A DNA stretch of 43,026 nucleotides, taken from NCBI GenBank assembly GCA_949878745.1, contig CATLBH010000022.1, forward strand, positions 1 through 43,026, given 5' to 3'. Positions 123-27,711 of the stretch are shown here, one piece after another. A program made the translations under genes and the position numbers. The notes under the pieces were generated by a model. It saw only the letters and a list, made by a program, of their open reading frames with translations. It was not told the DNA's origin and did not search any database. Each line of letters starts with the position of its first letter. Position 1 is the first letter of the stretch. Source of the stretch: an uncultured Ruminiclostridium sp. (GTDB lineage Bacteria > Bacillota > Clostridia > Oscillospirales > Ruminococcaceae).

Positions 123-226
123 CTAATCTTTGGTCAAGTTATAGACAAATATTTTGGATGACCAAAAATTAGTGCTTTGGGTGCAATCTTTAATCAAGTC
201 TAGAACTTGATTAAAGATTGGTATTA
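123..226 (-). repeat. Bipartite double-hairpin element, copy 1
   Basis: Two hairpins are separated by the 12-nt linker at 172-183 (CACCCAAAGCAC on the minus strand). The minus-strand first hairpin has stem AATCTTTAATCAAGT; the second pairs CTAATTTTTGGTCA with TTGACCAAAGATTAG. The outer ends carry the TAATACTAAT-like signature shared with the copies at 7289, 7384, 21643 and 27592. It lies just downstream of the GH5 gene stop. Confidence 0.7.
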
Positions 227-266
227 TCTGTTCAAAGTAAATCCGCGCTTAAGCCTCAAGCTCACC

Positions 267-1415
267 TCACGACTCCTGCTCATGAAGCTTCCCCGTGATA
301 TCCGCGATCATCTGCCGCTCGTCGTCCTTTTCTATCCTGTAAAGCGTACGCGAATAGAAATGCGCGTTTACGTCCCAGAGCACCGGTACGATATCGCTTT
401 CCAACAGCTTATTAAGCACAATGGCGACATATTTGGAGGAAGTTCTGTCCGTAACGCTGCTGTCAATGTTCTCGTCGGGATATCTCGATGAGGTTTCTCC
501 CATAAATACGGGAATCCCCTTATCCAAAAACGCACCCTTCAAAAGCGCGATCTGGTCGTCGATATACTGAAGCCATTCGTCGGTGCCCACTCTCTTGGCC
601 CAGAAGAAGGCGTTGTCCACATAGTGCACCGAAACCATAAGTCTGTTTTCGGCGGAATCGGTGGGAACAATAAATTCGGGCGCGGTGGTAAAGTCTATAT
701 TGGTCCAGTAGCCGGAAACTATCAGAACTCTCTCCGCGTTCTTTCCTCCGGTGGATCTTACCGCGTCCACAAAGGCCTGGTTAAGAGTATTGGTCAACTC
801 GTAGGCCTCGTCCTTGGGACGATCCTCCACCTTGCGCTTGGAATTCAGCTTTCCTCCTCCCAAATATTCGTTATATCCCTCAAACATCAGCTTGTAGGAA
901 TAATCCTTGAAATACTCCGCGATCTGCTTCCAGATTATGGTGAATATTTCCTTACATTCCTCGGTGGTGTGGCGGCGTATAATGAACTCGTCGAAATGGT
1001 GAATATTTATTACGGTATAAAGCCCCGCCTTCTGGCAGTAATCCACTACCTCCTTTACTCTTGCGGCGTATTCGGGGTTCAGCGTATAAGTGCCGTCGTC
1101 CTCCATCATATTGCCCCAATAAACGGGTACGCGTACGGTTTCAAAGCCGTCGGCCTTCATACCGTCGATTATTTCCTGAGTGGTCTCCACCGCGCCCCAG
1201 CAGGTTTCGTAGTCCTTGGGCGTGTTGCTTCCCACAACCGAAACCCAGTCTTTGTAGTCCGAAGTGGAGCAGCTTTCCAACGTGTTGCCCAGATTGATTC
1301 CCACACCCATTTTTTCGGCCGCCTCCTGCGCCGTCATACTGGTTTCGCTGTCACAGGCCGACATAGTCAGCAATATGGCGGCGCAAGTGATTCCCGCGAT
1401 TATTTTTTTTAACAT
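267..1415 (-). CDS. Glycoside hydrolase family 5 endoglycanase, lipoprotein
   Basis: This is a probable secreted endo-beta-glycanase of the cellulase/mannanase superfamily GH5, anchored outside the membrane. The N-terminus is a lipoprotein signal: MLKK, a hydrophobic run, then a lipobox-like MSAC with Cys21. The TIM-barrel signatures appear in order: GINLGNTLE (39-47), FETVRVPVYW (91-100), VINIHH (135-140), the acid/base Glu183 in YNEY, HY at 264-265, and the nucleophile Glu307 in FMGE. The length of 382 aa is normal for a single-domain GH5, and no carbohydrate-binding module is present. An AAAGGAAG ribosome site precedes the ATG. It follows the GH2 gene on the same strand but is separated from it by 163 bp with a hairpin element. 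The substrate (cellulose, mannan or xyloglucan) cannot be told from sequence. Confidence 0.9.
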   Translation of the reverse strand: MLKKIIAGITCAAILLTMSACDSETSMTAQEAAEKMGVGINLGNTLESCSTSDYKDWVSVVGSNTPKDYETCWGAVETTQEIIDGMKADGFETVRVPVYWGNMMEDDGTYTLNPEYAARVKEVVDYCQKAGLYTVINIHHFDEFIIRRHTTEECKEIFTIIWKQIAEYFKDYSYKLMFEGYNEYLGGGKLNSKRKVEDRPKDEAYELTNTLNQAFVDAVRSTGGKNAERVLIVSGYWTNIDFTTAPEFIVPTDSAENRLMVSVHYVDNAFFWAKRVGTDEWLQYIDDQIALLKGAFLDKGIPVFMGETSSRYPDENIDSSVTDRTSSKYVAIVLNKLLESDIVPVLWDVNAHFYSRTLYRIEKDDERQMIADITGKLHEQES

Positions 1416-1460
1416 TTATAACTCTTCCTTTCTTTAGAGGAAAGCCCGATGTTTTTTAGT

Positions 1461-1546
1461 GAACCGCTGATTAAAGCTCAGCGTAACACAATCATCCGCG
1501 TGAGTATGCTGCTTTGAACGGGGGATTGTGTTTTAATCAACGGTTC
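1461..1546. repeat. Small inverted-repeat element between GH5 and GH2 genes
   Basis: The ends GAACCGCTGATTAAA (1461-1475) and TTTAATCAACGGTTC (1532-1546) are inverted repeats with one mismatch; ACACAATC and GATTGTGT form an inner stem. The 86-bp unit looks like a miniature inverted-repeat element, and on transcription it would form a hairpin between lacZ and the GH5 gene. One arm matches 107-121 on the far side of the GH5 gene. Confidence 0.6.
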
Positions 1547-1578
1547 CTTAGGATCATATCGGGCTTATTACCTCGTTT

Positions 1579-4614
<3,036 letters not shown>

Positions 4615-4616
4615 TT

Positions 4617-4645
4617 ATTATAATATTACTTGACATCGGAGTCAA
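4617..4645 (-). promoter_or_regulatory. Promoter of the beta-galactosidase gene
   Basis: On the minus strand TTGACT (4640-4645) and TATAAT (4617-4622) are spaced by exactly 17 bp, 33 bp upstream of the lacZ ATG. The -35 box lies in the right half of the palindrome CTTGAC-N6-GTCAAG (4629-4646). Confidence 0.85.
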
Positions 4646-4658
4646 GAAATGATATTAT
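4629..4658 (+). promoter_or_regulatory. Promoter of the AraC-type gene with shared palindromic operator
   Basis: TTGACA (4630-4635), a 17-bp spacer and TATTAT (4653-4658) form a sigma-A promoter. Its -35 box is the left half of the palindrome CTTGAC-N6-GTCAAG, whose right half is the -35 box of the divergent lacZ promoter. The two promoters overlap, so polymerase binding at one should exclude the other. Confidence 0.85.
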
Positions 4659-4672
4659 GATTATATAACAAT

Positions 4673-5500
4673 ATGAAGATGGGAAGTGTTTTTTTGTTCT
4701 TCTGCGATTTCCCGATAATACGCGGCGAAAGCGAACTGCCCTTGTATCTTCTGCATATGGGACAGCACGTCTGTCAAAATTATATTATAAGGAACAGCGG
4801 ATATCCTCATAATCAGATACTGTACTGCACAAAGGGAAGCGGTATCCTTTTGACGGAGGGCGAAAAAATCCCGATACCTGCGGGCACCGCGATGTTTTTG
4901 CCAGCCCGCCGCCCTCACGAATATTATCCCGAGGGGGATATATGGGACATTCGCTGGGTCGTTCCCTCCGGCTACGCTCATGAGGATATTTTAAGGCACT
5001 TCGGACTCGCGGAAACCGAAGTTTTCCCTCTGAAAGACCCCCATGCGCTGGACCGTATTTTCAGAAAAATGCACGAAGCCTTAAGGACGGAGGGCGTTTT
5101 CGGAAATTACAGAGCTTCGGGTTATCTGTATGAATTTTTAATGGAATTTTACCGCCAAATTTCCGCCAAAGGCACCTCCGCCGCCCCCAATCCCGCACTG
5201 ATAAAGGCCGTGGATTATATAGAGCTGAATTACGCCCGCCATATCACAATGGAACACCTTTGCTCCGTCTCCGGCGTCTCCAAACAACACCTCTGTATGC
5301 TCTTCCGCACCACCTTGGGCCTTCGCCCCACCGAGCACATAACAAAACGAAGAATTCAAGCCGCGAAGGAGCTGCTTGCTTCCTCCGAAAAAACCACCGA
5401 AGAAATAGCTCTCCGCACCGGATTTTGCACTTCAAGCTATTTTTGTAAAATGTTTAGGAGGTATGAAGGGGTTACGCCGTCGGAGTTTAGGAAAAGTTGA
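4673..5500 (+). CDS. AraC-family transcriptional regulator
   Basis: A 275-aa regulator with an N-terminal cupin-like effector domain (about 20-160; GSGILLTEGEKIPIPAGTAM resembles the AraC arabinose-binding fold) and a C-terminal AraC DNA-binding domain with two helix-turn-helix units (about 190-215, MEHLCSVSGVSKQHLCMLFR; about 240-266, EEIALRTGFCTSSYFCKMFR, ending in GVTPSEFRKS). It is divergent from lacZ and is the obvious candidate to control lacZ and the GH5 gene in response to a sugar. Oddly, the predicted transcription start lies only about 8 nt before this ATG, leaving no room for a ribosome site. Translation may be near-leaderless or start at a later codon. Confidence 0.9.
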   Translation: MKMGSVFLFFCDFPIIRGESELPLYLLHMGQHVCQNYIIRNSGYPHNQILYCTKGSGILLTEGEKIPIPAGTAMFLPARRPHEYYPEGDIWDIRWVVPSGYAHEDILRHFGLAETEVFPLKDPHALDRIFRKMHEALRTEGVFGNYRASGYLYEFLMEFYRQISAKGTSAAPNPALIKAVDYIELNYARHITMEHLCSVSGVSKQHLCMLFRTTLGLRPTEHITKRRIQAAKELLASSEKTTEEIALRTGFCTSSYFCKMFRRYEGVTPSEFRKS

Positions 5501-5938
5501 AAAGGGGTGGGAAATGATAGTTTTTTTGAAAAGAGCGTTATGTGTTAATGCTAATGTAGGGTAAGGGCACTTATTGAGACGGTATTTTATGGGAACGAAG
5601 GTTATATTGGCAATATAACGCAAAAAAGGGGGAGAGAAAAAAAGGGGGAGGGGTAGACTTAATCGGGAGAGTTTGGCGGCGGCGCGGCGCAGCCGCGAAC
5701 GGAGCCGAAGGCGGAGTGAGCCGACGCGAAGCGAATGCGGAGCGTCGCCAAATTTTCCTAACGGAAAATTTGGGCTGCGCCCCCCGCTGTTGGGCAGCTA
5801 TCGGTGTAGGGACGGTTTTAACTGATGAAGCGGTTTGCGGAGTTTGACACGCAAAACAAAAACAAAGTTTTTCACGGGTACGCAATCATCGGCAATAACA
5901 TATAGGACATCAACTTAAACGGACGAAAAAGCTTTATT
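5501..5938. other. Gene-free GC-rich intergenic stretch
   Basis: No gene is supported here. It holds short palindromes, for example CCAAATTTTC..GAAAATTTGG (5749-5771) and TATATTGGCAATATA near 5602. A GC-rich patch at 5670-5760 looks like repeat debris. Open frames in it have low-complexity translations and no ribosome sites. Confidence 0.5.
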
Positions 5939-6293
5939 GGGAGCAGTTATATGAAAGAAACAGCCCAAGAGCAAAACAAAATACAATAATAGCACTCGTC
6001 GGCACAGCTTCTATGAGAGAGAAACCCATATTGACAATAAAACGCCCAGAGGGGGGGGTAAGGAAGGGATTCTTAAGGTGAAACCTAAGGGGGGGAGAGT
6101 GGGGGACAGGATTCGCCGAACCGGTACATTTCCGAAAAAAACAATCCACATTATAAGTCAAACCAACATTGCGAATCCTGTTCACCTTCTCCCCCCCTTT
6201 GGTGTCACCTTAAGCCCCCCGCGGGAGCGGTCCTGCACGGCCCGTGCATTAAATAAAGCATCAAATAAAGGAATCGACTTTCGATATAAACCT
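5939..6293 (+). repeat. ~350-bp structured repeat, copy 1
   Basis: It aligns over essentially its full length with the inverted copy at 29576-29922. The core is an imperfect hairpin of about 44 bp: one arm starts at CTTAAGGTGAAACC (about 6074) and the other ends at GGTGTCACCTTAAG (about 6213). The inner stem is ACAGGATTCGC/GCGAATCCTGT. A second small hairpin, TGCACGGCCCGTGCA, follows. No open frame is conserved between the copies, and the loop differs strongly, so this is a non-coding element. Confidence 0.7.
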
Positions 6294-6434
6294 TCAACCC
6301 CTTGCGGTAAGCAAAACCTATCTATCCCCACCACGTGAGCAGCCCTGCACGACAGTGCAATCAATAAAGCAGCATAGTAAAAAGGAATCGACTTTCGATA
6401 AAAACCTTTAACCCCTTGCGGTAAGCAAAGCCCC
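6225..6434 (+). repeat. Tail of the structured repeat, tandemly duplicated
   Basis: Bases 6225-6318 and 6337-6434 are diverged direct repeats. Both contain a GCAC..GTGC mini-hairpin, GGAATCGACTTTCGAT and ACCCCTTGCGGTAAGCAAA. The second copy runs up to the stop codon of the convergent F420-ligase-like gene, so it also forms that gene's 3' end. Confidence 0.65.
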
Positions 6435-7198
6435 TATTTCTCCCTCTCAAACCTAACCTTCTCCATCTCCGCCAAATCCCTATCCTTCCCCTCCAGCCTT
6501 TCAACCTTCCTCACTATAGCAAGCGGAGTCTGACAAAATCCCTGATCATGCGGATTATCCCTGTACAGCTGTTCGCAGAACTTGTCCGGAATATCCCTGC
6601 TGCTTTTCCCCAAAACATTACACCCCAAATCGTTGGCGTCCACAATAACCACCTCGACATTGGCGTGCTTCTTCATATCCGCCGCCGCCCCGTCGGGATC
6701 CTCGGGAGCCATTTTCGCGTATTCGTTATAAGGGGGAACATTGTACTCGCTGGGCCCGTCTATGGCTCTCGCCTTCATTCCCAGAATATTGTAAAACACC
6801 CCGCGTTTTCCGAACAACTTACAGATTCCCGCCACTACCGCCGCGAAAAGCACCTTTATCCTGCCGCACTCCCTTAAGCACAGCTCCATGGTGGAGGGCG
6901 CGCCTATTCCTATTCCCGCGTCGGATTTATAAACGAATTTTACGAGGAATTTCGCCAAACGGCTTATCTTGATATCGCTGACCTTAAGCGCCCGTCCTTG
7001 GGTAATAGCCACAATCTTTTCCGATATAAAGATCATGTCCCCTTCCTCAAGATATTTCATAACATACTGATCAAGAAGATCGTTCATAACGTCCTCTTTC
7101 ATGACCACATGGGTCTTGATGGGGAAGCGGGCATAGGTTCCCCATTCCGTTTCAATTGTAAGATTTTTGCCCTCGTTGGGCTTGAAAGGCATTTCCAT
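6434..7198 (-). CDS. Coenzyme F420-0:gamma-glutamyl ligase-like protein
   Basis: A 254-aa protein of the CofE/F420-0:L-glutamate ligase fold family: GDMIFISEKIVAITQGR, GIGAPSTMELCLRECG, an internal VVIVDANDLGCNVLG segment and a C-terminal DNPHDQGFCQTPLAIVRK. CofE proper adds gamma-linked glutamates to F420-0 using GTP. Clostridia of this type are not known F420 makers and no other F420 gene is in the window, so the real substrate is unknown. It is transcribed alone from a consensus promoter at 7248-7276. The ATG start lacks a strong ribosome site at ideal spacing (AAGGAG lies about 15 nt upstream). Confidence 0.8.
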   Translation of the reverse strand: MEMPFKPNEGKNLTIETEWGTYARFPIKTHVVMKEDVMNDLLDQYVMKYLEEGDMIFISEKIVAITQGRALKVSDIKISRLAKFLVKFVYKSDAGIGIGAPSTMELCLRECGRIKVLFAAVVAGICKLFGKRGVFYNILGMKARAIDGPSEYNVPPYNEYAKMAPEDPDGAAADMKKHANVEVVIVDANDLGCNVLGKSSRDIPDKFCEQLYRDNPHDQGFCQTPLAIVRKVERLEGKDRDLAEMEKVRFEREK

Positions 7199-7247
7199 GG
7201 TTTTTCAGTATTCTCCTTAACTTTATTATTCCTTGTTAACGCTTATT

Positions 7248-7276
7248 ATTATACCACTTAAGGCAAATTTAGTCAA
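7248..7276 (-). promoter_or_regulatory. Promoter of the F420-ligase-like gene
   Basis: On the minus strand TTGACT (7271-7276), a 17-bp spacer and TATAAT (7248-7253) lie about 50 bp upstream of the start codon. Confidence 0.8.
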
Positions 7277-7288
7277 TAATAAATCCTC

Positions 7289-7384
7289 ATACCAATCCCT
7301 TTTTAAACTATGGATAAAATCCATAGTTTAAAAAGGGTTGCACCCAAAACACTAATCCCACAGTTTTAAAAGGGATTAGTATAA
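7289..7384 (+). repeat. Bipartite double-hairpin element, copy 2
   Basis: Hairpin 1 pairs CCCTTTTTAAACTATGG with CCATAGTTTAAAAAGGG. The linker CACCCAAAACAC is at 7341-7352. Hairpin 2 pairs ACTAATCCC with GGGATTAGT. The stems differ wholly from copies 3 and 4 while the linker and outer TACTAAT/ATTAGTA signature are kept. It abuts copy 3 in tandem. Confidence 0.75.
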
Positions 7385-7499
7385 TACTAATCTTTAATCA
7401 TATTGTAGACGAAGTCGGAAATATGATTAAAGATTACACCCAAAACACCAATTTTTGGTCAACATTTTTTGTCTATAATCTGACCAAAGATTAGTATTA
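7384..7499 (+). repeat. Bipartite double-hairpin element, copy 3
   Basis: Hairpin 1 pairs TAATCTTTAATCATAT with ATATGATTAAAGATTA. The linker CACCCAAAACAC is at 7437-7448. Hairpin 2 pairs AATTTTTGGTCA with TGACCAAAGATT (one mismatch). It is nearly identical to copy 4 at 21643. It ends 20 bp before the metallo-hydrolase ATG, so it occupies that gene's promoter region. Confidence 0.8.
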
Positions 7500-7519
7500 A
7501 ATATACGCGAGGCGATTTT

Positions 7520-8101
7520 ATGATAAACAAGCTGAGATATGGCAATACAAACACATTTTTTATCGGGGGAGCAAGCGGCCTCCTTATCGACACCGACCTT
7601 CCCGGAACCTTACCCGCCTTTTATAAGTCGATTAAAGAACACAATATCAAAACAGGCGATATTTCTTATGTATTAGCGACCCACTACCACCCCGACCATA
7701 TAGGCTTAATAAGCGAGCTGACAAAACAGGGCACAAAGCTCTTGCTGATTGATATCCAGAAGCCGTACATACATTTTTCCGATGAGATTTTCAATAGGGA
7801 TAAACGGCTGAAGTACGAACCTGTAAATACCGATAATTCGGTAATAATCACCGTTAAAAACAGCCGTAAGTTTCTTAAAAGCATAGGTATCGAGGGAGAA
7901 ATTATCTTCACCCCAAGTCACAGCGAAGACAGCGTATCCTTAATTTTGGACAGCGGGATTTGTTTTGTGGGAGATTTGGAGCCTATTGAATATCTCGGAG
8001 CCTATGACGAAAATCTTAAATTAAAAGCCGATTGGGAGCTTGTTATGAGCTATCGCCCCAAAATAATTTACTACTCCCACGCAAATGAAAAAATAACGTA
8101 A
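7520..8101 (+). CDS. MBL-fold metallo-hydrolase
   Basis: A 193-aa metallo-beta-lactamase-fold hydrolase. The zinc-binding signature is THYHPDHIG (His55, His57, Asp59, His60), followed by His134 in PSHSEDSV, Asp152 in FVGDLEP and a His near the C-terminus in YYSHA. This set is complete for a dinuclear site. The family acts on thioesters, nucleic acids, phosphodiesters and lactones, and the substrate cannot be assigned here. GAGGCG precedes the ATG. The gene lies directly behind a bipartite hairpin element and 41 bp before a decarboxylase-like gene, with which it may be cotranscribed. Confidence 0.85.
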   Translation: MINKLRYGNTNTFFIGGASGLLIDTDLPGTLPAFYKSIKEHNIKTGDISYVLATHYHPDHIGLISELTKQGTKLLLIDIQKPYIHFSDEIFNRDKRLKYEPVNTDNSVIITVKNSRKFLKSIGIEGEIIFTPSHSEDSVSLILDSGICFVGDLEPIEYLGAYDENLKLKADWELVMSYRPKIIYYSHANEKIT

Positions 8102-8142
8102 CCGAAAAATAAAAAAACGGAAAGGCCACTGCGGAAAACAAT

Positions 8143-9429: not shown

Positions 9430-9459
9430 GTAAAAATAAAGTAAAATATTTTTCCGCGG

Positions 9460-9488: not shown

Positions 9489-9522
9489 AATCTAAAACAC
9501 TCAATAAGAAAGCCGAATTGCC

Positions 9523-16080: not shown

Positions 16081-16083
16081 CTT

Positions 16084-18422: not shown

Positions 18423-18547
18423 TCGATTCCCACCTGACGCAGCGTTTCTTTTCCGTCTTACTCTTACCGGCTTTCTTTTTTTATCAAAAACAGCACTCCC
18501 CGCCGCCGTAAAACGCCGTGGGAAATAATTCGTTTTCGATTAACGTA

Positions 18548-18576
18548 ATTATATCACAAGCGTAAAAAACAGTCAA
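18548..18576 (-). promoter_or_regulatory. Promoter of the EpsG-like gene
   Basis: On the minus strand TTGACT (18571-18576), a 17-bp spacer and TATAAT (18548-18553). The predicted leader is about 120 nt. Confidence 0.8.
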
Positions 18577-18786
18577 TACCCAACCTGTAAAACGCGAAAA
18601 ATTTTGTAAAAATATATTACTTTTGTACATACTGTCACTATATATTTTGTTTATATTAACCTGAAACTTTTTCCCGCTTTTGAATCTCGAAGTCTTTTCA
18701 AATGCGGCTTCGCATTATATCGGCAAATCGACCCGCAAAATCGCGGAACCGAATTTGAATCGTTAAACGAAAAACGGTCATAACAC

Positions 18787-18815
18787 TGGACAAATATGCC
18801 GGTTTGGTGTATAAT
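18787..18815 (+). promoter_or_regulatory. Possible antisense promoter into the GT4 gene
   Basis: TGGACA (18787-18792), a 17-bp spacer and TATAAT (18810-18815) on the plus strand, 16 bp before the 3' end of the minus-strand glycosyltransferase gene. No plus-strand gene follows, so any RNA made would be antisense to it. Confidence 0.45.
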
Positions 18816-18830
18816 ATTGTTGGAACATTG

Positions 18831-19922: not shown

Positions 19923-19975
19923 AGCTGTCCCCACAATGATTTTTTTAAATTTTAAAATTTGATAAGGAAACGATT

Positions 19976-21502
19976 ATGCGCAGTAACAAAAATAACAAAA
20001 GAAAATCCGAAAGATCAGACAGATCCGCCGCATTCGCTGTCGTCGCCGCTGTCGTAGGAGTATCCGTTTTGGGAGCTATCGGCGCCGCCCATGACATAAA
20101 GGCCTTTTCCGCTTCCGATTTTGTAACCGGCTCCGACGATCTTATTTCTCCTATCCAAATTAATCCGGGCGGATACGAACCGACGCCGGATTACACGATC
20201 CCGGCCATAGGAACCTTTCCCAACGGATATGTCCCCCCCGAAACCACCGAGGCGGTAGTGGACGATCCCTTTAATATGGGGGGCGAAGTTTCGGAAACCG
20301 AGGAAACCACCTCCGGCGGCGGAATATTTTCCTTTGACGAGGAAACCGCTCCCCCAGAAGTGTCGGACTACCCCTCGGTAACCGACGTAACGGAGCCTCC
20401 ACCGCCCACTCTCTTCCTTACATATTATACCTTCGATCTAACCGTAGGTCAAGAGGCACAGATATATTGGTGGGTGGAAAACAGCGATTATAGCGGATAT
20501 CAGGAGTTATTTTCCGTGGACAACCCGAATGTGGCCTCGGTGAGCGAATCGGGAATAATTACCGCGCTGGGGGCGGGAACGGCGAATATCACCGTGACGT
20601 GGGGCGAGCTGACAGCCGAGGCCAAAGTGACAGTGGCCGCGGGCGAAACCTCCTCCGTTGTTCCCGCCACCGACCCCGTAACCAATCCCATCACCGACCC
20701 TGTCACGGAAAACACTTCCCAAGAGGAAACCTCACCCTCGCAATCGGAGTCAGTTCCCCTTCCCAAGGCTAAGCTGGAAGGCTGTCTCTATAACACGTCG
20801 GGAATCGCGATCCCCGACGTTGTTCTGAGAATCGGAGACAGAACGGCAGTAACCGACCGTAACGGCTATTTCTGCTTTACCGAAACGGACATGGGGGAAA
20901 TAAGGATTTTCTCCGCCCTTAACGAACGGCTGAGCTGTCCTATGAACCTTACCGGCAGCTCCACGGTGTTTCTTCTGTACGCCGGGGAATCGATGGAATA
21001 CTTTACCTCCTATGAGGAAATGGCGGCGCGCTTCGTCATAACCGATATCGAGCTGGAAACGCCCAACAAGCGTATTTACACGGGCGACGTGCTGATACCC
21101 TATTTTCAGTATGAGCCGAGGGACGCCGCCCTTACCGACGCCAGATACATAAGCTCCGACGAAAACGTGGCGGCGGTGGACGAAAACGGAGTGATTACCG
21201 CCAAGGCGGCGGGCGAGACCGTGATAACCCTTATACTTAACAACGGACAGGCACAGACCGCCTTCACCCTCACCGTCAACCCGCAGGAAATCGGAAAATA
21301 CAGCGGTATCATCGCGGCGGTGGAGATTCTGATTATCCTGATAGTCTTAGGCTCATGCTGGGCGGTATATAAAAGGTATAAGCGGAGGATAGGCGAGGAA
21401 AGCGCTCCCGCCTCCGCACCCCAAAACAGCTTTAATTACGCTTCGGTTACCGCCGAAAAAGACGGAAACAGCCGTGATGACGACGGCAGCGAAACCGAAT
21501 AA
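19976..21502 (+). CDS. Membrane protein with two Big_2 Ig-like domains
   Basis: A 508-aa surface protein of unknown role. Order: a basic N-terminus, a signal anchor (FAVVAAVVGVSVLGAIGAA), a Pro/Glu/Thr-rich linker, a bacterial Ig-like group 2 domain (about 143-222: LTVGQEAQIYWW, NPNVASVSESGIITALGAGT), a Thr/Pro linker, a carboxypeptidase-regulatory-like fold (about 260-300: LEGCLYNTSGIAIPDVVLRI, TDRNGYFCF), a second Big_2 domain (about 350-437: DENVAAVDENGVITAKAAGE), a C-terminal membrane helix (GIIAAVEILIILIVLGSCW) and a cytoplasmic tail. AAGGAAA precedes the ATG. Big_2 domains generally mediate adhesion or spacing at the cell surface. It is followed by a terminator. Confidence 0.85.
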   Translation: MRSNKNNKRKSERSDRSAAFAVVAAVVGVSVLGAIGAAHDIKAFSASDFVTGSDDLISPIQINPGGYEPTPDYTIPAIGTFPNGYVPPETTEAVVDDPFNMGGEVSETEETTSGGGIFSFDEETAPPEVSDYPSVTDVTEPPPPTLFLTYYTFDLTVGQEAQIYWWVENSDYSGYQELFSVDNPNVASVSESGIITALGAGTANITVTWGELTAEAKVTVAAGETSSVVPATDPVTNPITDPVTENTSQEETSPSQSESVPLPKAKLEGCLYNTSGIAIPDVVLRIGDRTAVTDRNGYFCFTETDMGEIRIFSALNERLSCPMNLTGSSTVFLLYAGESMEYFTSYEEMAARFVITDIELETPNKRIYTGDVLIPYFQYEPRDAALTDARYISSDENVAAVDENGVITAKAAGETVITLILNNGQAQTAFTLTVNPQEIGKYSGIIAAVEILIILIVLGSCWAVYKRYKRRIGEESAPASAPQNSFNYASVTAEKDGNSRDDDGSETE

Positions 21503-21533
21503 AGAAAATTCACTAAGCCTTGTATTATATGAA

Positions 21534-21577
21534 AACGCCGTTCTTGTGGTCTTTCACCGCTTGAACGGCGTTCAATT
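21534..21577 (+). terminator. Terminator after the Big_2 gene
   Basis: AACGCCGTTC (21534-21543) and GAACGGCGTT (21563-21572) form a perfect 10-bp stem with a 19-nt loop, followed by a short T-rich run, 31 bp after the stop codon. Confidence 0.7.
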
Positions 21578-21642
21578 ATTTCCCCCCGGTTATTTTGGTT
21601 CACGGGAGTGCTTTTCTCCGTCTTTTTCATACTATTCGTTTT

Positions 21643-21759
21643 ATACTAATCTTTAATCATATTGTAGACGAAGTCGGAAATATGATTAAAGACTACACCC
21701 AAAACACTAATCTTTGGTCAACATTTTTTTGTCTATAATCTGACCAAAGATTAGTATTA
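21643..21759 (+). repeat. Bipartite double-hairpin element, copy 4
   Basis: Nearly identical to copy 3 at 7384. Hairpin 1 has stem AATCTTTAATCATAT, the linker CACCCAAAACAC is at 21696-21707, and hairpin 2 pairs CTAATCTTTGGTCA with TGACCAAAGATTAG. Its last three bases (21757-21759, TTA on the plus strand) are the TAA stop codon of the minus-strand ParB-fold gene, so the element supplies that gene's end. Confidence 0.85.
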
Positions 21760-22356
21760 CACTGCCGTTTCCGTTTCGTCGCTTTTCTTTTGCTTGGGAG
21801 CAGCGGGGGGAACAGTTTCCTGCGAAAACCCTTCCCCAACGCTTTCCTCGGGTACCCACGCCTGACCGAAGTTCACGTCCTTAAACAGCGAAGCGAGACC
21901 GGTTATCTGTTTCAGCCTCAGTATTTCGTCCTTCTCCATTCCCAGATGCTTTGATATCCAGTCGTCGGACCGTCCCAGATCGTGAAGCTCTCTCACTATA
22001 TTCCCCATCAGATCAACGCTGTGACTTCCCCTGGCTCTGTTGTGCCTTACGGTGCTTGCCATTCGCTGTGCCAAAGGCTTGTTGATGACCGAAACGGGAA
22101 GAACGCCGCCCTCCCGTTCGTATATATCCTGATGCTCCAGCATAACCCGATACCTGTGAAAACCGTCGACTATTATGTACAGGTCGTCCTTTCGGGAGTA
22201 ATAACAGACTATCGGCATGGTGTAGCCGTCCTCTCTTATACTGTCGTACAGAAGATCAAGCTCAGGGGGAGCTACCGCGTTGGGGTTGTAGTTATTGGGC
22301 AGTATCTTTTCTATGGGAACGGGAGTTACGTTGTATACGGGACTCGAAAGTTTCAC
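21757..22356 (-). CDS. ParB/Srx-fold protein, IbrB-like
   Basis: A 199-aa protein with an N-terminal ParB-like nuclease/CTPase fold: VPIEKILPNNYNPN, DSIREDGYTMPIVCYY and the ParB-box-like VDGFHRYRVMLEHQ. A helical segment follows with RHNRARGSHSV and a helix-turn-helix-like GRSDDWISKHLGMEKDEILR. This matches IbrB, partner of IbrA. The start is GTG, immediately after the stop of the upstream gene, with GGAGG 8 nt before it inside that gene, so translation is coupled. Its stop codon is donated by the repeat element at 21643-21759, so the natural C-terminus may have been changed. The biochemical function of IbrB is not established. Confidence 0.85.
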   Translation of the reverse strand: MKLSSPVYNVTPVPIEKILPNNYNPNAVAPPELDLLYDSIREDGYTMPIVCYYSRKDDLYIIVDGFHRYRVMLEHQDIYEREGGVLPVSVINKPLAQRMASTVRHNRARGSHSVDLMGNIVRELHDLGRSDDWISKHLGMEKDEILRLKQITGLASLFKDVNFGQAWVPEESVGEGFSQETVPPAAPKQKKSDETETAV

Positions 22357-23676
22357 TTACAGCACCTCCAGGCTTTTGTATTTCTTTTTTATCCGATCGA
22401 TTCTTTCTTTTTGCTTTTTCGATTCGGAAAAACCCATGGTTTTACAGTTATGATCGTTTTTTAGTATGCATATGCACATACGCTTCCAGCTGGGGATTTC
22501 CCTTGTGCTGAGTATATCGTCGGTATCGTCGGGTATTTTCTCCGTGAAAATTATTCTCGTTTTTTTGTCCACGGTGTAATTCGACACTCCGTTGGCTTTT
22601 ATCTGATATCCCTTTTCTACAAGCTCGCATATGGTTTCCTCCGATAAGCCGCCGCCCGTTTCGTGCCAGAATTTTATAGAGGTTTTGAATTTTTCGATAT
22701 ATTTTTTTCTCAATCGGGCGGGAAGAGTGCTTAAAAGAAATTCCGTATAGCTTTTCCAGGTATGACCTTCGGGAAGCTTTATGCTGCGGTAGGCCATTGC
22801 GGTGGTGCGGCCGTAAATCGAGGCGAAATTCGTCCCCTGTACCCTCCCCAGAAGTCTCACCCAGGTATCCGGCTCCAGAACGCGGTAAAGGTGAAGGCTA
22901 TCCCTTGCGTAATCGTTGAAAGGGGAGGCCACCCGCATTTGGTTCGGTTTAAGACCCGCGCGGAAATACATATCGTAAAGGGCGTTGTATGTGTATCCGA
23001 ACTTGTAGTTGGCGGCCCAGATGTCGTTTACTGTCCAGTCGTAAATGGGAGAACCACACCAAACGTCCTTGAACATTTTGGATATCCAGCAGCTGCCCTT
23101 ATATCCGTGCTTCTTATTTATAAAGGAATTGTATCTCTGCAATGATTCGGCTGCCCTCACTCCCAAAAGGCACACTGTGCTTCCCCCGCCGTGAGTTTCC
23201 TTATACCAGCGGCCGAATTGCTTTGAAAGATTTTCCTGGTGCATTTTATAGCTGTAGTAATAAAAGGGATTGTTGCTCAGATTGATTACATAGGGCTTTT
23301 TCGGCATTGGCCTTACCCACATTTCCTCCTTCGTGTCGTCCCAGGGGTACCAGTATATCTGATAACTGCTCAGGGAGGTTCTTGCCGCCATGGGAAGACA
23401 GACCCAGTAGGGCTCTATGAATTCCCTGTTTTTTTCGAATACGGATTCTACATACTTGGTGGTAACGTCGTACTGGGCCTCAAAATCCAGATGAAACACA
23501 CCTAGCTTTTTTCCGATATTTTTTTCCTTCATATAATCCAGAACCAGATTGGTCAGAAGCCCGCTGTCTTTCCCTCCGCTAAAGGAAACGTAAACGTTTT
23601 CGAACTCTTTGAAAATATAGTCCATGCGCTTTCTAAAGGCTTCATGTACATTGATGTCAAGGTATTTTTTTGTCAT
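22357..23676 (-). CDS. PAPS-reductase-fold protein (DUF3440), IbrA-like
   Basis: A 439-aa member of the PP-loop ATPase / phosphoadenosine phosphosulfate reductase-like superfamily with a DUF3440-type C-terminus. The PP-loop SFSGGKDSGLL is at 31-41. Other family features are VFHLDFEAQY, KMFKDVWCGSPIYDWTVNDIW and SPFNDYARDSLHLYR. ATG 23676 has AAAGGA 8 nt upstream, so an earlier TTG was rejected. With IbrB it forms a coupled pair, like the ibrAB regulators of enterobacterial immunoglobulin-binding genes, though the molecular activity is unproven. The PP-loop chemistry suggests adenylation of a substrate before thiolation or reduction. It is transcribed from its own promoter, divergent from rpmH. 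Confidence 0.87.
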   Translation of the reverse strand: MTKKYLDINVHEAFRKRMDYIFKEFENVYVSFSGGKDSGLLTNLVLDYMKEKNIGKKLGVFHLDFEAQYDVTTKYVESVFEKNREFIEPYWVCLPMAARTSLSSYQIYWYPWDDTKEEMWVRPMPKKPYVINLSNNPFYYYSYKMHQENLSKQFGRWYKETHGGGSTVCLLGVRAAESLQRYNSFINKKHGYKGSCWISKMFKDVWCGSPIYDWTVNDIWAANYKFGYTYNALYDMYFRAGLKPNQMRVASPFNDYARDSLHLYRVLEPDTWVRLLGRVQGTNFASIYGRTTAMAYRSIKLPEGHTWKSYTEFLLSTLPARLRKKYIEKFKTSIKFWHETGGGLSEETICELVEKGYQIKANGVSNYTVDKKTRIIFTEKIPDDTDDILSTREIPSWKRMCICILKNDHNCKTMGFSESKKQKERIDRIKKKYKSLEVL

Positions 23677-23735
23677 TATGTCATTCCTTTTATCCAAAGC
23701 TGTCGAATTTTGTTAATAAATGAAGTCCGCATAAT

Positions 23736-23764
23736 ATTATATCACAGTAAATCGAAAAAATCAA
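23736..23764 (-). promoter_or_regulatory. Promoter of the IbrA/IbrB-like pair
   Basis: On the minus strand TTGATT (23759-23764), a 17-bp spacer and TATAAT (23736-23741). The predicted leader is about 50 nt. Confidence 0.75.
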
Positions 23765-23805
23765 CTTTAGCGAATTATATTTCCGTGAAATTTCGAAAAT
23801 ACCAC

Positions 23806-23834
23806 TTGACATACCGCGGCAAATGCGATATAAT
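23806..23834 (+). promoter_or_regulatory. Promoter of the rpmH operon
   Basis: TTGACA (23806-23811), a 17-bp spacer and TATAAT (23829-23834) form a perfect-consensus promoter, fitting a highly expressed ribosomal protein operon. The leader is about 60 nt. Confidence 0.9.
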
Positions 23835-23901
23835 AATAAGGCTATCATAGAAAAAGAATTACTGTTGCACGCCAACGATAATCGGAAAGGAAGGACAAAA
23901 T

Positions 23902-24036
23902 ATGAAAAGAACATACCAGCCCAAGAAGCGTCAGAGAAAGATGGAACACGGCTTCAGAAAAAGAATGTCCACAAGCAACGGCAGAAAGGTGCTTGCCAGA
24001 AGACGTGCCAAGGGCAGAAAAAGACTTTCTCACTAA
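23902..24036 (+). CDS. rpmH: 50S ribosomal protein L34
   Basis: A 44-aa basic ribosomal protein of the large subunit. It opens [20 protein letters not shown] and closes with [18 protein letters not shown], both diagnostic of L34. AAGGAAGGA precedes the ATG. It is the first gene of the rpmH-rnpA-yidD-yidC-jag cluster. In many bacteria this cluster abuts dnaA and oriC, but here the upstream neighbour is the divergent IbrA-like gene. Confidence 0.98.
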
Positions 24037-24039
24037 GCT

Positions 24040-24414
24040 GTGGATTACTCCAAAAAATACGTAAGCGTTAAGAATGACCGTGAGTTTAGGTTTCTTTTTA
24101 AAAAAGGGAAAAGTATCGTTAACAGCGCCTTTGTGTGCTATATGCGCCCCAATAAAAGGCGAGTGAACCGCTTGGGTCTTGTCACCTCGAAAAAAATAGG
24201 CGGCGCCGTCAAAAGAACCCGCGCGAGAAGAGTTCTTAAGGAAGCCTTCCGGCTGCTGGAGCCGGAGCTGAGACAGAAAAGCGGCAAGCGCTACGATTTT
24301 ATCTTCGTAGCCAGAGGACGCACCCCTTTTATGAAATCGAACAAGCTGTACGGAATTATGAAAAAGCTTATAACGGAGCAAATCGGCAGAGAAAATGACA
24401 AAGAAAAAGGATAA
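24040..24414 (+). CDS. rnpA: Ribonuclease P protein component
   Basis: A 124-aa basic protein that binds the RNase P RNA and helps process the 5' ends of tRNA precursors. The RNR signature region reads NRLGLVTSKKIGGAVKRTRARRVLKEAFR at about 42-70. The N-terminus MDYSKKYVSVKNDREFRFLFKKGKS is typical. It starts with GTG only 3 nt after the rpmH stop and has no clear ribosome site, so translation is probably coupled to rpmH. Confidence 0.96.
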   Translation: MDYSKKYVSVKNDREFRFLFKKGKSIVNSAFVCYMRPNKRRVNRLGLVTSKKIGGAVKRTRARRVLKEAFRLLEPELRQKSGKRYDFIFVARGRTPFMKSNKLYGIMKKLITEQIGRENDKEKG

Positions 24415-24415
24415 A

Positions 24416-24445
24416 AGACCGGACGGTTATGACCGTCTTTGTTTG
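24416..24445 (+). terminator. Weak hairpin after rnpA
   Basis: GACGGT (24422-24427) and ACCGTC (24432-24437) with a 4-nt loop, followed by a broken T-rich run (TTTGTTTGCTTT). It sits in the 197-bp rnpA-yidD gap and may attenuate transcription rather than end it. Confidence 0.4.
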
Positions 24446-24611
24446 CTTTACTGTTTTTCCGTATACCGCGCGCCTTTATTTATGACTAAGGGCATGTTTT
24501 CTTGTTTATACTCGTCACGTGCGGTTTCGAAAAACGGTTTTTCTCCTTTTCTATACCTTATTTTTAAATAGACCCGAAGCCAGAGTATGCGTTTCGGCAT
24601 TATTATGAAAA

Positions 24612-24935
24612 GTGAAATATATGAAATATATATTGATCGGGCTTATAAAATTGTATAGAATGACTTTGTCGGAAAGATTGCCGCGTTTATGCCGCTTTAC
24701 GCCAAGCTGCTCACAGTATGCGCTTACTGCTGTCAGCCGCTTCGGAGCGGTTAAGGGCGGCTTTTTGGCATTTTGGAGGATTTGCAGGTGCAATCCCTTT
24801 TCCGCGGGAGGGTGGGATCCCGTTCCCGAGGAATATTATTTTTTCCGCTCGCTTAAAAAACGGATAAAAAAACGATTGGGAAGAAAATCGGCGTCGGAAG
24901 AAAACAAAGACAGTGCTCAAGAAAAAAGAAAGTAA
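24612..24935 (+). CDS. yidD: Membrane protein insertion efficiency factor YidD
   Basis: A small (107 aa) membrane-associated protein that helps YidC insert membrane proteins. It carries the family core: an N-terminal amphipathic or membrane helix (YILIGLIKLYRMTLS), the Cys motif CRFTPSCSQYA, then GAVKGGFLAFWRICRCNPF and GGWDPVP. A charged C-terminal tail follows. The start is ambiguous: GTG 24612 or ATG 24621, neither with a strong ribosome site. Its place between rnpA and yidC is standard. Confidence 0.94.
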   Translation: MKYMKYILIGLIKLYRMTLSERLPRLCRFTPSCSQYALTAVSRFGAVKGGFLAFWRICRCNPFSAGGWDPVPEEYYFFRSLKKRIKKRLGRKSASEENKDSAQEKRK

Positions 24936-24978
24936 AAAGGTTGTGATTTAAATAGAATTTTTATACTCCATTATAGGT

Positions 24979-26442
24979 ATGCCCCTCGGTTATATTATGT
25001 GGGCATGCTATCTTCTGGTCAACAATTTCGGCTGGGCGATAATAATCTTTACCGTTATCATAAAGGCGGCTATGTTTCCTCTTACTTTAAAGCAGCAAAA
25101 GAATATGGCCAAGTCCCAGCTTTTCACCCCGAGAGTAAAGGAAATACAGCAAAAATACCGCAATAATCAGGAAAAAATGCAGGAGGAGATGGGAAAGCTC
25201 CAGAAAGAGGGATACAATCCCATGGGCGGCTGCGGCACCATGCTGGTGACCTTCCTTATTCTTTTCGGCGTTATCGACGTCGTTTACAAGCCCATGACAC
25301 ATATGGAACACCTTAACTGGGGCGACAGCGCGGCGGTTTCCACCATAGTGTCGAGAGCCAAACAAACGGATTACGCTCTGACCCTTCTGGCCAACGAAGA
25401 CGATCTTAAGGTATATCTGGACTATCTGAGCGATCCAAATACGCTTACCATACGCACTCAGAAGGACATCGACGCACTTACGGAGGAAGCCAAGGCGACC
25501 GCCGATATTCAGGAACAGATAGTTATCCCCGAAGAACGAGAATTCGACATCAACAAGGCAAAAGCCGACATCGTTTTTACCAAAAGCGATGTAATGACAA
25601 AATACGGTATTACCGAGGAACAGTGGAACAGACTTTCCTCTCTTACCGACGAAACGGCGGCTACCCTTGCCGACGGTAAGTCGAGACTTTCCGCTCCCGT
25701 AAAGAACGCCCTCAATATGGCGAAGAACGGAAGCTTTGTTTCATTAAGGCAGGAGCTGGCGGCGCTGAGGGTATACACCGACCACAAGGAAGCTTTTGCC
25801 GACATACCCGTTACTCAGGAAGCGATGGACAAACTGGACAACCTCAGCAACAATATGCAGTTTGCCGGACTTGATCTGGGCGCCACTCCCGGGTTTGAGC
25901 TTCCGCTTATCCTTATTCCCATATTATCGCTTATTATGTCTCTGGCTCAGATGATAATCTCCCAGATCATTCAGAAAAAGACAAATCCCGATATGCCCGA
26001 ACAGCCCGGCTGCGCCAAGTTTACGCTGTACATTATGCCGCTGTTTTCGCTGTACATTGCCTTTCAGGTACCGGCGGGCGTCGGCTTTTACTGGGCAATG
26101 AGCTATCTGTTCGGAATATTGCAGTCCCTGGTTGTTTATAAATTCTGGCCCACCGAAAAGCTTAAGGAACAGGCGCGGCAGGAACTGGAAAAGAAAAACG
26201 TCAACCTTACCGCCACCGCTACCGTTGTGGATATTGATGAAGAGGGCAACGAGATAAAGGTGTCCAGAAAAATGTCCGATATGTCCGCCAAGGAGATAAA
26301 GGAATATCAGCGCAAAAAACTGGAAGAAGCGAGAAAAGCCGACGCCGAAAAATACGGAGACGAAAACATTCCCGATTTGCCTCCCCTTGATGAGGACAGC
26401 AGCAGCGGTGATGACAGCGGCAAAAACGGCGGAGAAAACTGA
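24979..26442 (+). CDS. yidC: Membrane protein insertase YidC/OxaA
   Basis: A YidC-family insertase that integrates proteins into the cytoplasmic membrane. Order: first membrane helix (GWAIIIFTVIIKAAMFPL), the conserved cytoplasmic hairpin (KQQKNMAKSQLFTPRVKEIQQKY..NPMGGCGTML), a long extracytoplasmic insert (about 120-290) and C-terminal helices (LILIPILSLIMSLAQMI, LYIMPLFSLYIAFQVPAGVGFYWAMSYLFG). A charged tail ends it. The first ATG (24979) has no ribosome site and lacks the family start. In-frame codons from 24952 encode IEFLYSIIG ahead of it, with AAAAAGG at 24934-24940, so the true start may be the rare ATA at 24952. Confidence 0.95.
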   Translation: MPLGYIMWACYLLVNNFGWAIIIFTVIIKAAMFPLTLKQQKNMAKSQLFTPRVKEIQQKYRNNQEKMQEEMGKLQKEGYNPMGGCGTMLVTFLILFGVIDVVYKPMTHMEHLNWGDSAAVSTIVSRAKQTDYALTLLANEDDLKVYLDYLSDPNTLTIRTQKDIDALTEEAKATADIQEQIVIPEEREFDINKAKADIVFTKSDVMTKYGITEEQWNRLSSLTDETAATLADGKSRLSAPVKNALNMAKNGSFVSLRQELAALRVYTDHKEAFADIPVTQEAMDKLDNLSNNMQFAGLDLGATPGFELPLILIPILSLIMSLAQMIISQIIQKKTNPDMPEQPGCAKFTLYIMPLFSLYIAFQVPAGVGFYWAMSYLFGILQSLVVYKFWPTEKLKEQARQELEKKNVNLTATATVVDIDEEGNEIKVSRKMSDMSAKEIKEYQRKKLEEARKADAEKYGDENIPDLPPLDEDSSSGDDSGKNGGEN

Positions 26443-26504
26443 CAAGGTTTTGCGAAGATACCGATAATTACCCTATAAGAACGTTTATGAAAGGAAATAT
26501 AAAA

Positions 26505-27491
26505 ATGGAAAGAATATATTCCGCGAAACAGCTGGAGGACGCCAAGAAACAGGCGTACGAGGAATTTGAGGCGGAGGGCGCAGAACGCGACGAAATAGAG
26601 TTCACCATATTGGAACAGCCCGTTAAGAAGCTTTTCTCCACAAAGGGCGAATACAGGATTAAGGCGGAGTGGAATCCCGTAGAGGTTGATGTAAAAAGCG
26701 TTTTCGCTTCCTCGGTGGAAGCCGTAAGGGAAGAGGAGAAGGGTAAAAAAGCGGATCCCGAACCTGTCGGCGCGGCCGAAACGGAGCGGGAGGATAAGTC
26801 CTCGGCTTCGGAAAAGGCTGAAGACCCCGCGCTTACCTGCGCTAAAATCCAGCGAGCCACCGCTTATCTCACCGACGTACTCAAGAAGCTTGGCATGGAG
26901 AACTTCAGCATCACGCCCGTAAAGCGCGGCGAAACGGTGGTATTGGATATAGAGGGCAGCGACCTGGGCGTTGTTATCGGAAGAAGAGGGGAAACTTTGG
27001 ACGCTATTCAGTATCTGACTATACTTGCGGGCAACAGGGGCGAAGAAAATTACTGCCGCTTAAGCATAGACTGCTGCGGTTACCGCGAGAAGCGGAGAGA
27101 GGCGCTGGAAACCTTGGCGGTTAAGACCGCGAAAAAGGTGCTTAAGGCGGGAAGACGTATCACTCTGGAGCCTATGAATCCCTATGAGCGCCGGATAATT
27201 CACAGTAAGGTGGCGGAAATGGAGGGAGTAAGCAGCCGTTCCATGGGCGAGGAGCCTTTCAGAAAGGTGGTTATCAGCGCCAACGAGCCTCACAGAGGCC
27301 CCAGAAGATCGGGAGGAAACAGAAACGGAAGCTATTCCACCGATTCCTATAAGCGCAGCTCCGGTTTCTCCACTTCCTTTGAAAGAGAATACAAGAGGAA
27401 GGACGCGCCCGCTGTCGAGGCTTCCGAGTATTCCGAAGAGACGGTGGAGCTGGAGAAGAGCGTTAGCCTTTACGGAAAAATAGAGCTTTAA
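26505..27491 (+). CDS. jag: RNA-binding protein Jag/KhpB
   Basis: Jag (KhpB) is an RNA-binding protein linked to cell elongation and sporulation, usually encoded after yidC. The 328 residues comprise a Jag_N domain (MERIYSAKQLEDAKKQAYEE, to about 60), a charged linker, a KH domain (about 125-205, VVIGRRGETLDAIQYL), an R3H domain (about 205-270, YREKRREALETLAVKTAKKV, ERRIIH) and a variable Ser/Arg-rich tail. ATG 26505 is chosen because AAAGGA lies 8 nt upstream; the earlier ATG at 26487 lacks a site. In many Firmicutes mnmE follows; here a repeat-filled gap does. Confidence 0.94.
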   Translation: MERIYSAKQLEDAKKQAYEEFEAEGAERDEIEFTILEQPVKKLFSTKGEYRIKAEWNPVEVDVKSVFASSVEAVREEEKGKKADPEPVGAAETEREDKSSASEKAEDPALTCAKIQRATAYLTDVLKKLGMENFSITPVKRGETVVLDIEGSDLGVVIGRRGETLDAIQYLTILAGNRGEENYCRLSIDCCGYREKRREALETLAVKTAKKVLKAGRRITLEPMNPYERRIIHSKVAEMEGVSSRSMGEEPFRKVVISANEPHRGPRRSGGNRNGSYSTDSYKRSSGFSTSFEREYKRKDAPAVEASEYSEETVELEKSVSLYGKIEL

Positions 27492-27534
27492 AAGGATCTG
27501 TTCGGTAAATCTCCTTTTGGGAGAGAAACCGTGG

Positions 27535-27596
27535 TTTTAATACTATTTTCACATTAAAAAGATCGGATAATTCAGCGGATAATTTGAAATTATACT
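27535..27596 (+). repeat. 61-bp direct repeat, left copy
   Basis: TTTTAATACTATTTTC..ATTAAAAAGAT..GCGGATAATTT.AAATTA matches 27781-27843 in the same orientation, with about ten differences. Its ends, TTAATACTA and TATACTAA, show the same TACTAA signature as the bipartite hairpin elements. Confidence 0.7.
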
Positions 27597-27711
27597 AATA
27601 ACCATTTTGACACAGGATAAAATCAAAGTCAAAATGGTTATTACTCCCAAAGCACTATTAACCGATTAAAAACCATTTATCCAATTTTTAATCGGTTAAT
27701 AGTATTAGTAT
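27592..27711 (+). repeat. Bipartite double-hairpin element, copy 5
   Basis: Hairpin 1 pairs AATAACCATTTTGAC (27597-27611) with GTCAAAATGGTTATT (27628-27642). The linker CTCCCAAAGCAC is at 27644-27655. Hairpin 2 pairs TATTAACCGATTAAAAA with TTTTTAATCGGTTAATA. The stems share no sequence with the other copies, yet both are fully paired and the outer ATACTAAT/ATTAGTAT ends are kept. Confidence 0.8.

Follow-up and report, generated by a model that had tools for sequence, protein, structure and literature searches.

The window, the whole stretch of 43,026 nucleotides analysed here, carries five copies of a double-hairpin element, along with single-hairpin elements and a derivative of one of the double-hairpin types (Table 1). 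All five copies had been pointed out in a sequence-only reading of this DNA and were confirmed; they are members of a family of MITE-like, non-coding mobile elements present in many copies. The copies of type A and type B at 7290 and 7385 stand in tandem, with one TAA as their sole spacer. The linker of 12 nt, which the earlier reading took to be fixed, is CACCCAAARCAC in four of the copies and differs in the fifth (CTCCCAAAGCAC). Its statement that the stems differ wholly was overstated: the copies at 7385 and 21644 are of the same family, the copy at 121 has their second hairpin, and only those at 7290 and 27593 represent different families. Nearly every base had also been said to be compensated. 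The five copies do fold strongly as single-stranded DNA (z of -5.9 to -11.8 against their own shuffles), but an A.C mismatch is found at 21644, C.A and T.G at 7385, T.G at 121 and a bulge at 7290, so that single copies do show the mismatches expected of ordinary point mutation. The older single-hairpin element at 27541 is split at its TTA by the type F element, and the type A derivative sits within another repeat family. The TTA at 21757-21759 is also the stop codon of a minus-strand ORF (21757-22356).

Table 1. Hairpin elements of the window with their linkers, flanking triplets and basis of assignment (bits, covariance-model score).
Feature	Position	Strand	Linker	Flanks	Basis
Double-hairpin, type C (hp1 CAATCTTTAATCAAGT, hp2 as type B)	121..223	-	172-183	GTA end absent; GGGAACCGCTGATT abuts there instead	95.6 bits
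Double-hairpin, type A	7290..7381	+	7341-7352	TAA 7382-7384 (spacer)	57.7 bits
Double-hairpin, type B	7385..7496	+	7437-7448	TAA/TTA, mismatched	92.7 bits
Double-hairpin, type B	21644..21756	+	21696-21707	TTA duplicated, 21641-21643 and 21757-21759	98.9 bits
Older single-hairpin (TAC...GTA)	27541..27710	.		TAA and TCA, unmatched	direct reading; weak covariance-model match
Double-hairpin, type F	27593..27704	+	CTCCCAAAGCAC, 27644-27655	TTA duplicated, 27590-27592 and 27705-27707	95.1 bits
Single-hairpin, related to type E hp2	27788..27842	.		TAA duplicated, 27785-27787 and 27843-27845	weak covariance-model match
Type A derivative	38531..38603	+	lost, with part of both hairpins	TTA at 38528-38530 and 38604-38606	near-chance covariance-model match

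Copy number, ends and insertion

The search of related genomes with a covariance model that the earlier reading had proposed showed that 9 of 71 genomes from the genus carry the element, with at least 53 matches in genome G000 and at least 40 type F copies in G016, the latter at 99-100% identity and representing a recent burst. The carriers are probably short-read MAGs. The strict linker pattern under-detects them; G034, for example, has no match by pattern and four by covariance model. The genome contains CACCCAAARCAC at 71 sites and the reversed pattern at 2 only, and by a simple arm score both hairpins are present at 44 of 63 distinct exact-linker sites of the genome, compared with 0 of 63 with shuffled flanks. 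The elements are usually 80-125 bp long, are non-coding and fall into several stem families per genome. In a related 193-bp element the TIR lies outside a local hairpin. Some candidates were rejected: L136 and L188 match the pattern and have no hairpins, and of the loci considered for an autonomous partner, L172 is a solo hairpin next to unrelated genes and L235/L245 is a truncated 193-bp element. In viral contigs the linker pattern matched twice, both times without hairpins, and four other patterns had no match; no match was obtained in a plasmid search with type B or a phage search with types A and B.

The ends read TAC...GTA in 120 of 142 elements, and the left and right end tetramers are identical in 96 of 123. 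An exact 3-bp target duplication of the form TNA flanks 99 of 113 elements, the 113 being the 142 less 29 that lack flank or do not have both TA-type ends. Twelve intervals were compared for empty orthologous sites, and two were clean (the other ten were not): at one, G001 is empty and G016 is occupied with TAA doubled; at the other, G016 is empty and G001 has a single-hairpin copy with TTA doubled. Nested insertions likewise doubled TTA (L023) and TGA (L225). Empty sites and nested insertions together confirm insertion. Among the 85 elements with a perfect duplication and flanks of at least 330 bp, only 31 lie inside open frames, compared with 2104 of 2827 background TNA sites. In the same set the target duplication closes an ORF of at least 80 codons in 10 of 85 cases, against 135 of 2827 background sites.

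One process raised by the sequence-only reading is of the REP/Y1 type; in that case the elements would be REP/IS200-like and moved by a Y1 (HUH) transposase via single-stranded DNA. Hairpins close to both ends would suit it, and Y1 genes do occur in carriers: there is one in G000, one in G449 at 1.3 kb from an element with other sequence between, and a decayed, stop-ridden fragment in G008 that adjoins the element, between a truncated and a complete copy. To our knowledge, however, HUH/Y1 transposition makes no target duplication, whereas 3-bp duplications are seen here, at both empty sites as well, for a single-hairpin and a double-hairpin copy alike. Orientation has no GC-skew bias (31 of 63), and no Y1 gene was found in G016 (76% complete) despite its recent burst. 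The search for a linked HUH/Y1 gene gave Y1 matches in 4 of the 9 carriers and in 16 of the 62 other genomes, the carriers being drafts, so that each absence alone weighs little. With the target duplications and the unbiased orientation against it, we regard movement by Y1 as most improbable.

Searches with PF01609 in four genomes and PF13359 in G000, and end-pair scans of the fetched loci, revealed no transposase carrying these ends; all used draft genomes, in which contig ends cut several loci. Inspection by eye for end-like motifs yielded no matching end pair at six DDE_Tnp_1 loci and one overlapping DDE_Tnp_4 locus in G000 or at four DDE_Tnp_1 loci in G001, G008 and G016. At L193 in G001, a DDE_Tnp_1 fragment has a type E end some 185 bp away. 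One end-pair scan gave 10 pairs and another 17 pairs with an ORF of at least 120 codons. When the longest ORFs of 13 end pairs were compared with Pfam, 10 matched ordinary families, 3 (L084, L119 and L196) matched none, and no transposase was among them; the end pair within the window encloses a biotin ligase. TNATACTAATATCC sites were also read for an autonomous partner, and none was found.

Pairing between hairpin arms

The statistical test of covariation that the earlier reading had called for gave a score of 0.715, against 0.207 for shuffled sequence, on an alignment (A2) of 16 hand-chosen elements from which the short second hairpins of type A were omitted; 98.7% of 399 stem cells are paired. 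The 142 elements were chosen for their stems, which biases both a shuffle test on them and the claim that two hairpins are retained in clusters. The singleton, near-neighbour and exact-linker tests were not selected by pairing, although their loci were retrieved through the linker, an end motif, a sequence match or the model.

Such strong covariation, in elements that lie mostly outside long open frames, would also be expected of a transcribed structured RNA (terminator, attenuator or sRNA) under selection for RNA folding. G.U pairs, however, fill only 2 of the 399 stem cells, A:T to T:A swaps are many, and one-sided changes in single copies are common. Within families, a plain count of 48 G.T cells against 108 broken one-sided cells gives no sign that G.U is favoured. 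Rfam at gathering score found only tRNAs in the whole window, none of them on the elements, and all matches at 7250-7520 fell far short of the curated scores. Between 7150 and 7600 there are no terminator-like sites, and 4 promoter-like sites where 1.9 are expected. We therefore consider a conserved RNA very unlikely.

Between near neighbours, differences are one-sided in 109 cases and two-sided in 13, one of which is common to L158 and L160 (leaving 12 distinct changes), with 1.19 two-sided changes expected; the comparison covers pairs that differ at 1 to 8 positions. Single copies thus mostly change uncompensated, and the earlier expectation that stems would not drift without compensation holds only by half. 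The two-sided near-neighbour changes could also be inherited from unsampled source copies. Pooled singleton changes number 113 at the 306 sites in stems and 68 at the 145 sites in loops, omitting copies that contain N, cover less than 85% of the consensus or have the same 10-base flanks. Taken over all types, loops thus vary a little more than stems, which fits some constraint on the stems; the difference is clear in B and E and not in A. Inverted loops were absent among loops of at least 7 and present in wider tests. They occur in three hairpins of the 193-bp element (2 of 24, 1 of 19 and 2 of 28) and in type C (L028 versus L014); a three-base loop, AAA/TTT, is a weak case by itself. Inverted loops are footprints of template switching. 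The earlier reading had offered structural selection or a rewriting of one arm from the other; the excess of two-sided changes and the inverted loops support the rewriting idea in part.

Selection could also act through a transposase or host protein that needs the folded hairpins, as cruciform or single strand, with mobility selection on active source copies removing unpaired variants and template switching playing a minor part. This would account for the strong covariation between families, the matching left and right tetramers and the lower rate of singletons in stems, clearest in B and E. Two terminal hairpins are nevertheless not required, since a single-hairpin copy has moved and the TIR of the 193-bp element is not part of a local hairpin; the stems of type A change like loops, and inverted loops need copying. 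We put this explanation at a little less than an even chance.

Proposed mechanism and relation to known elements

The explanation we consider likely is that of a MITE-like, non-coding DNA transposon family whose arms are held complementary by template switching and by amplification of matching variants. A trans-acting transposase of DDE type, perhaps of the IS5/Harbinger kind, would recognise TACYRAT and the next few bases. The inner ends of double elements appear to be CAC rather than TAC/GTA, for which reason only the outer ends would be cut. Template switching during replication would copy one arm of a hairpin onto the other, now and then inverting the loop, and the variants amplified by transposition would be those in which the two ends still fit the transposase as well as each other. 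Pairing maintained in this way would be a property of the DNA and not of a conserved RNA. Template switching leaves the near-constant linker unexplained, a constancy that comes partly from fetching loci by linker.

We tentatively describe the family as hairpin-ended, multi-family MITEs moved by a candidate DDE transposase. Bacterial MITEs are non-autonomous IS derivatives of less than 500 bp, AT-rich, with inverted ends, target duplication and stable folds (PMC10969869). The present elements resemble them in being short, AT-rich, non-coding and multi-copy, with inverted ends, target duplication, a stable fold and a location mostly outside genes. They differ in having several stem families per genome with one architecture of two hairpins and a near-fixed linker, in arms re-matched across families, and in that no parent IS was found in the PF01609, PF13359 and end-pair searches. 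Duplications of the TNA type are made by the IS1031 and ISL2 groups, and the ends of IS5/PIF-Harbinger elements are G-rich. Canonical Harbinger elements make 3-bp duplications (PMC12730594). The 3-bp TNA-type duplication is thus shared with the IS5 family and PIF-Harbinger, whereas the ends here start with TAC and no such transposase is linked at the searched loci.

REP/REPIN sequences with RAYT are paired palindromes between genes in high copy, and integron attC sites combine variable sequence and conserved pairing with a tiny fixed core. By analogy, the present elements may be likened to the first in their paired palindromes, position between genes and copy number, and to the second in their variable sequence, kept pairing and tiny fixed core. 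Unlike REP/REPIN, they have target duplications and variable stems, and Y1 genes do not track them; the analogy with attC would likewise fail at the target duplication, which attC recombination, as far as we know, does not make. Template switching at quasipalindromes, described as a mutation process, homogenises arms and inverts loops (PMC7202029, PMC8604942). Both effects are paralleled here, where they would shape the ends of a mobile family.

A bolder version, which we think improbable, is that the recognition sequence of the transposon evolves by self-templating. Template switching would copy a new end arising in one arm to its partner, and recombination at the linker would bring the same tetramer into the other hairpin. 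All four arms and both ends would then shift specificity together, and the transposase may read the folded hairpins. If this is true, families would diversify their ends within one genome and stay mobile.

Compensated stem changes are normally read as a strong sign of selection for RNA structure. Here mobile DNA scores 0.715 for covariation with hardly any G.U, a signal partly attributable to a copying process. With many copies, defined insertion sites and countable one-sided and two-sided changes, the family is a natural test bed, and it would show how transposon ends can change sequence and yet keep matching.

Copies in the window and across the genome

The window corresponds to contig C22 in a draft genome of 2.67 Mb. 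Its five elements share one layout, running from TAC through the first hairpin, the 12-base linker and the second hairpin to GTA, apart from one lost end. The sequence-only reading had described five double hairpins with wholly different stems; the copies are confirmed, but three of the five form one related group, in which those at 7385 and 21644 belong to the same family and the one at 121 has hairpin 2 in common with both. The near-complete stem pairing it reported was overstated: four of the five copies have at least one mismatch or bulge.

Double-hairpin elements in the window, with stem families
Feature	Position	Strand	Type	Remark
double hairpin	121-223	(-)	C	GTA end lost
double hairpin	7290-7381		A	
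double hairpin	7385-7496		B	
double hairpin	21644-21756		B	
double hairpin	27593-27704		F	

Window 7287-7499 is a tandem pair of different families with only TAA in between, its flanking triplets (TCA, TAA, TTA) being unmatched. The sequence GGGAACCGCTGATTAA or its complement lies beside several elements (window 110-123; fetched loci L061, L062 and L066), so that a further repeat family apparently has insertion sites in common with the elements or provides them. Five tRNA genes are clustered at window 42125-42661.

Genome-wide, the linker CACCCAAARCAC has 71 occurrences versus 2 for the reversed pattern (193 versus 34 when one mismatch is tolerated). A simple arm score detects both hairpins at 44 of 63 distinct exact-linker sites, versus 0 of 63 with the flanks shuffled; truncated and decayed copies are among the failing sites. 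The 142 elements extracted from fetched loci, chosen by linker and stems, fall into 14 clusters. Mosaics combining a type A hairpin 1 with a type B hairpin 2 (L048) or a new hairpin 1 with a short A-like hairpin 2 (L187), and a three-hairpin element containing two linkers (L071), suggest modular behaviour of the hairpins. Because loci were retrieved through the linker, an end motif, a sequence match or the model, forms lacking them are under-represented, and part of the linker's constancy is a selection artefact; variants exist, including CACCTTAAGCAC (L291).

Distribution and relatives

A covariance model, R1, built from 16 elements and applied at an E-value of 1e-5 or better (its E-values are rough), was run on 71 genomes of the genus and detects the element in 9. 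Matches number at least 53 in G000, at least 52 in G016, at least 48 in G001, 33 each in G008 and G449, 13 in G437, 5 in G450, and 4 each in G427 and G034; no more than 53 candidates were scored per genome, which makes the high counts minimum values. The strict linker pattern is absent from 393 other sampled genomes of the order; since it also missed G034, despite the 4 model matches there, divergent forms may still occur elsewhere. The 'Oscillospiraceae bacterium' MAGs JAAVIF and JAAVIG are among the matches listed, and their contigs and match positions agree with G001 and G016.

Relatives in G001 have their ends in common with the double-hairpin elements and differ in the interior. They comprise a 193-bp multi-hairpin element, its deletion forms, one form with a single hairpin and, at contig ends, one with a long palindrome. 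The 193-bp element has ends TACTAATATCC, TTA duplications and many G001 copies (L226, L227 and others), and many G001 contigs break within it. At contig ends L277 and L287, a longer palindromic type with a TACTAATATCC end is cut off.

Transposition and the candidate mover

The double-hairpin element is a transposable element. Three-base flanks are identical in 99 of 113 elements with TA-type ends and flanks present (TTA 62, TAA 29, TCA 8); a 4-base match occurs once, and matches of 5 or 6 never. Clean empty sites were found in 2 of 12 orthologous intervals compared between genomes: an element lies between two TAA in G016 (L135) where G001 has a single TAA and no element (L143), and a single-hairpin copy lies between two TTA in G001 (L274) where G016 has one TTA (L150). 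One type A element doubled a TTA when it entered a type B hairpin (L023), and another doubled a TGA when it entered the 193-bp element (L225). At least 40 type F copies of 99-100% identity indicate recent activity in G016. Genes contain elements less often than they contain background TNA sites, the empty site lying inside an open frame of at least 150 codons for 31 of 85 elements versus 2104 of 2827 background sites.

For 10 of 85 elements a long ORF ends on the duplicated TNA as its stop codon, versus 135 of 2827 background TNA sites; the window ORF at 21757-22356 is one of the 10 loci. Different hairpin elements occupy the same intergenic TAA in G000 (L039, 1978) and G016 (L184, about 4136-4230). 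In several copies of a repeat, TTTTTAACACACGATGTG...GTCATTTGCCCAAAGTCGGC, the same TTA is occupied by a type A element (window 38510-38640 and 4371 (-); L027, L036, L067), and the repeat has an empty form in G427 (L332); this is a nested insertion, possibly amplified by the host repeat.

The 3-bp TNA duplication, also found in the IS1031 and ISL2 groups, points to an IS5/Harbinger-type DDE transposase as candidate mover. Canonical Harbinger elements make 3-bp duplications (PMC12730594). No mover was found: around six DDE_Tnp_1 loci with one overlapping DDE_Tnp_4 locus in G000, and around four DDE_Tnp_1 loci in G001, G008 and G016, no matching end pair was seen, contig ends truncating several of these loci. 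A DDE_Tnp_1 fragment (L193) has a type E end nearby. Pfam identified no transposase among 13 ORFs situated between end pairs. This absence carries little weight because MAG assemblies often lose multi-copy IS elements; the carrier genomes are drafts, probably short-read MAGs. As for a REP/Y1-type process, Y1 matches were found in 4 of the 9 carriers, compared with 16 of the 62 non-carriers. The Y1 gene 1.3 kb from an element in G449 looks like part of its own IS200-type unit, and a stop-ridden Y1 fragment flanked on one side by a truncated element end and on the other by a complete element of that type (L357, G008:C46:3300-5000) tentatively reads as a decayed IS200-type unit struck by elements.

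Pairing of the arms

In a structure-free MAFFT alignment of 16 elements, chosen for possessing hairpins, 98.7% of 399 cells are paired (73.5% shuffled), both sides change in 105 cells (31 shuffled), and the covariation score is 0.715 (0.207 shuffled; at most 0.173 with slid partners); further pair types show no excess (32 versus 33.3). Just 2 of the 399 cells hold G.U and swaps of A:T for T:A are frequent, a pattern that fits DNA-level pairing and is unlike RNA helices evolving through G.U. Left- and right-end bases at positions 5-8 are identical in 96 of 123 elements, and among 28 distinct end-tetramer combinations 83 of 112 positions agree, against 48.7 after shuffling and a maximum of 67 in 5000 shuffles. 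Thus one tetramer tends to be common to all four arms, as expected if one protein must read both ends.

The sequence-only reading offered strong structural selection or arm rewriting. Among copies collected by BLAST similarity irrespective of pairing (96 of type A, 34 of B, 45 of F, 13 of E and 8 of D), singleton changes total 113 over 306 stem sites and 68 over 145 loop sites, so single-copy stems are at best weakly protected.

Singleton changes per site, given for hairpin 1 and then hairpin 2
Type	Stems	Loops
A	0.86, 0.67	0.75, 0.64
B	0.26, 0.15	0.33, 0.42
F	0.19, 0.38	0.19, 0.50
E	0.33, 0.27	0.25, 0.70
D	0.47, 0.14	0.25, 0.38

Comparing each copy with its closest relative (1-8 differences, 118 comparisons) gave 109 one-sided and 13 two-sided Watson-Crick pair changes, 8 of the latter double transversions; random placement of the same substitutions yields a mean of 1.19 two-sided changes, with at most 6 in any of 2000 runs. 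Type B contributed 22 one-sided changes and no two-sided ones, and the two-sided changes may be partly inherited from unsampled sources. Inverted loops between otherwise matching hairpins occur in three hairpins of the 193-bp element (2 of 24, 1 of 19 and 2 of 28 copies; two in L263) and in type C (L028 versus L014). Arm homogenisation and loop inversion have been reported as marks of template switching between inverted repeats (PMC8604942), and arm homogenisation also as a mark of quasipalindrome mutation in E. coli (PMC7202029).

Bacterial MITEs are well known (PMC10969869), and neither this family nor arm rewriting in bacterial MITEs is described among the literature matches listed, which cover few subscription papers. 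We conclude that two processes act on the MITE-like double-hairpin family, low-rate copying between arms and transposition that amplifies matched variants.
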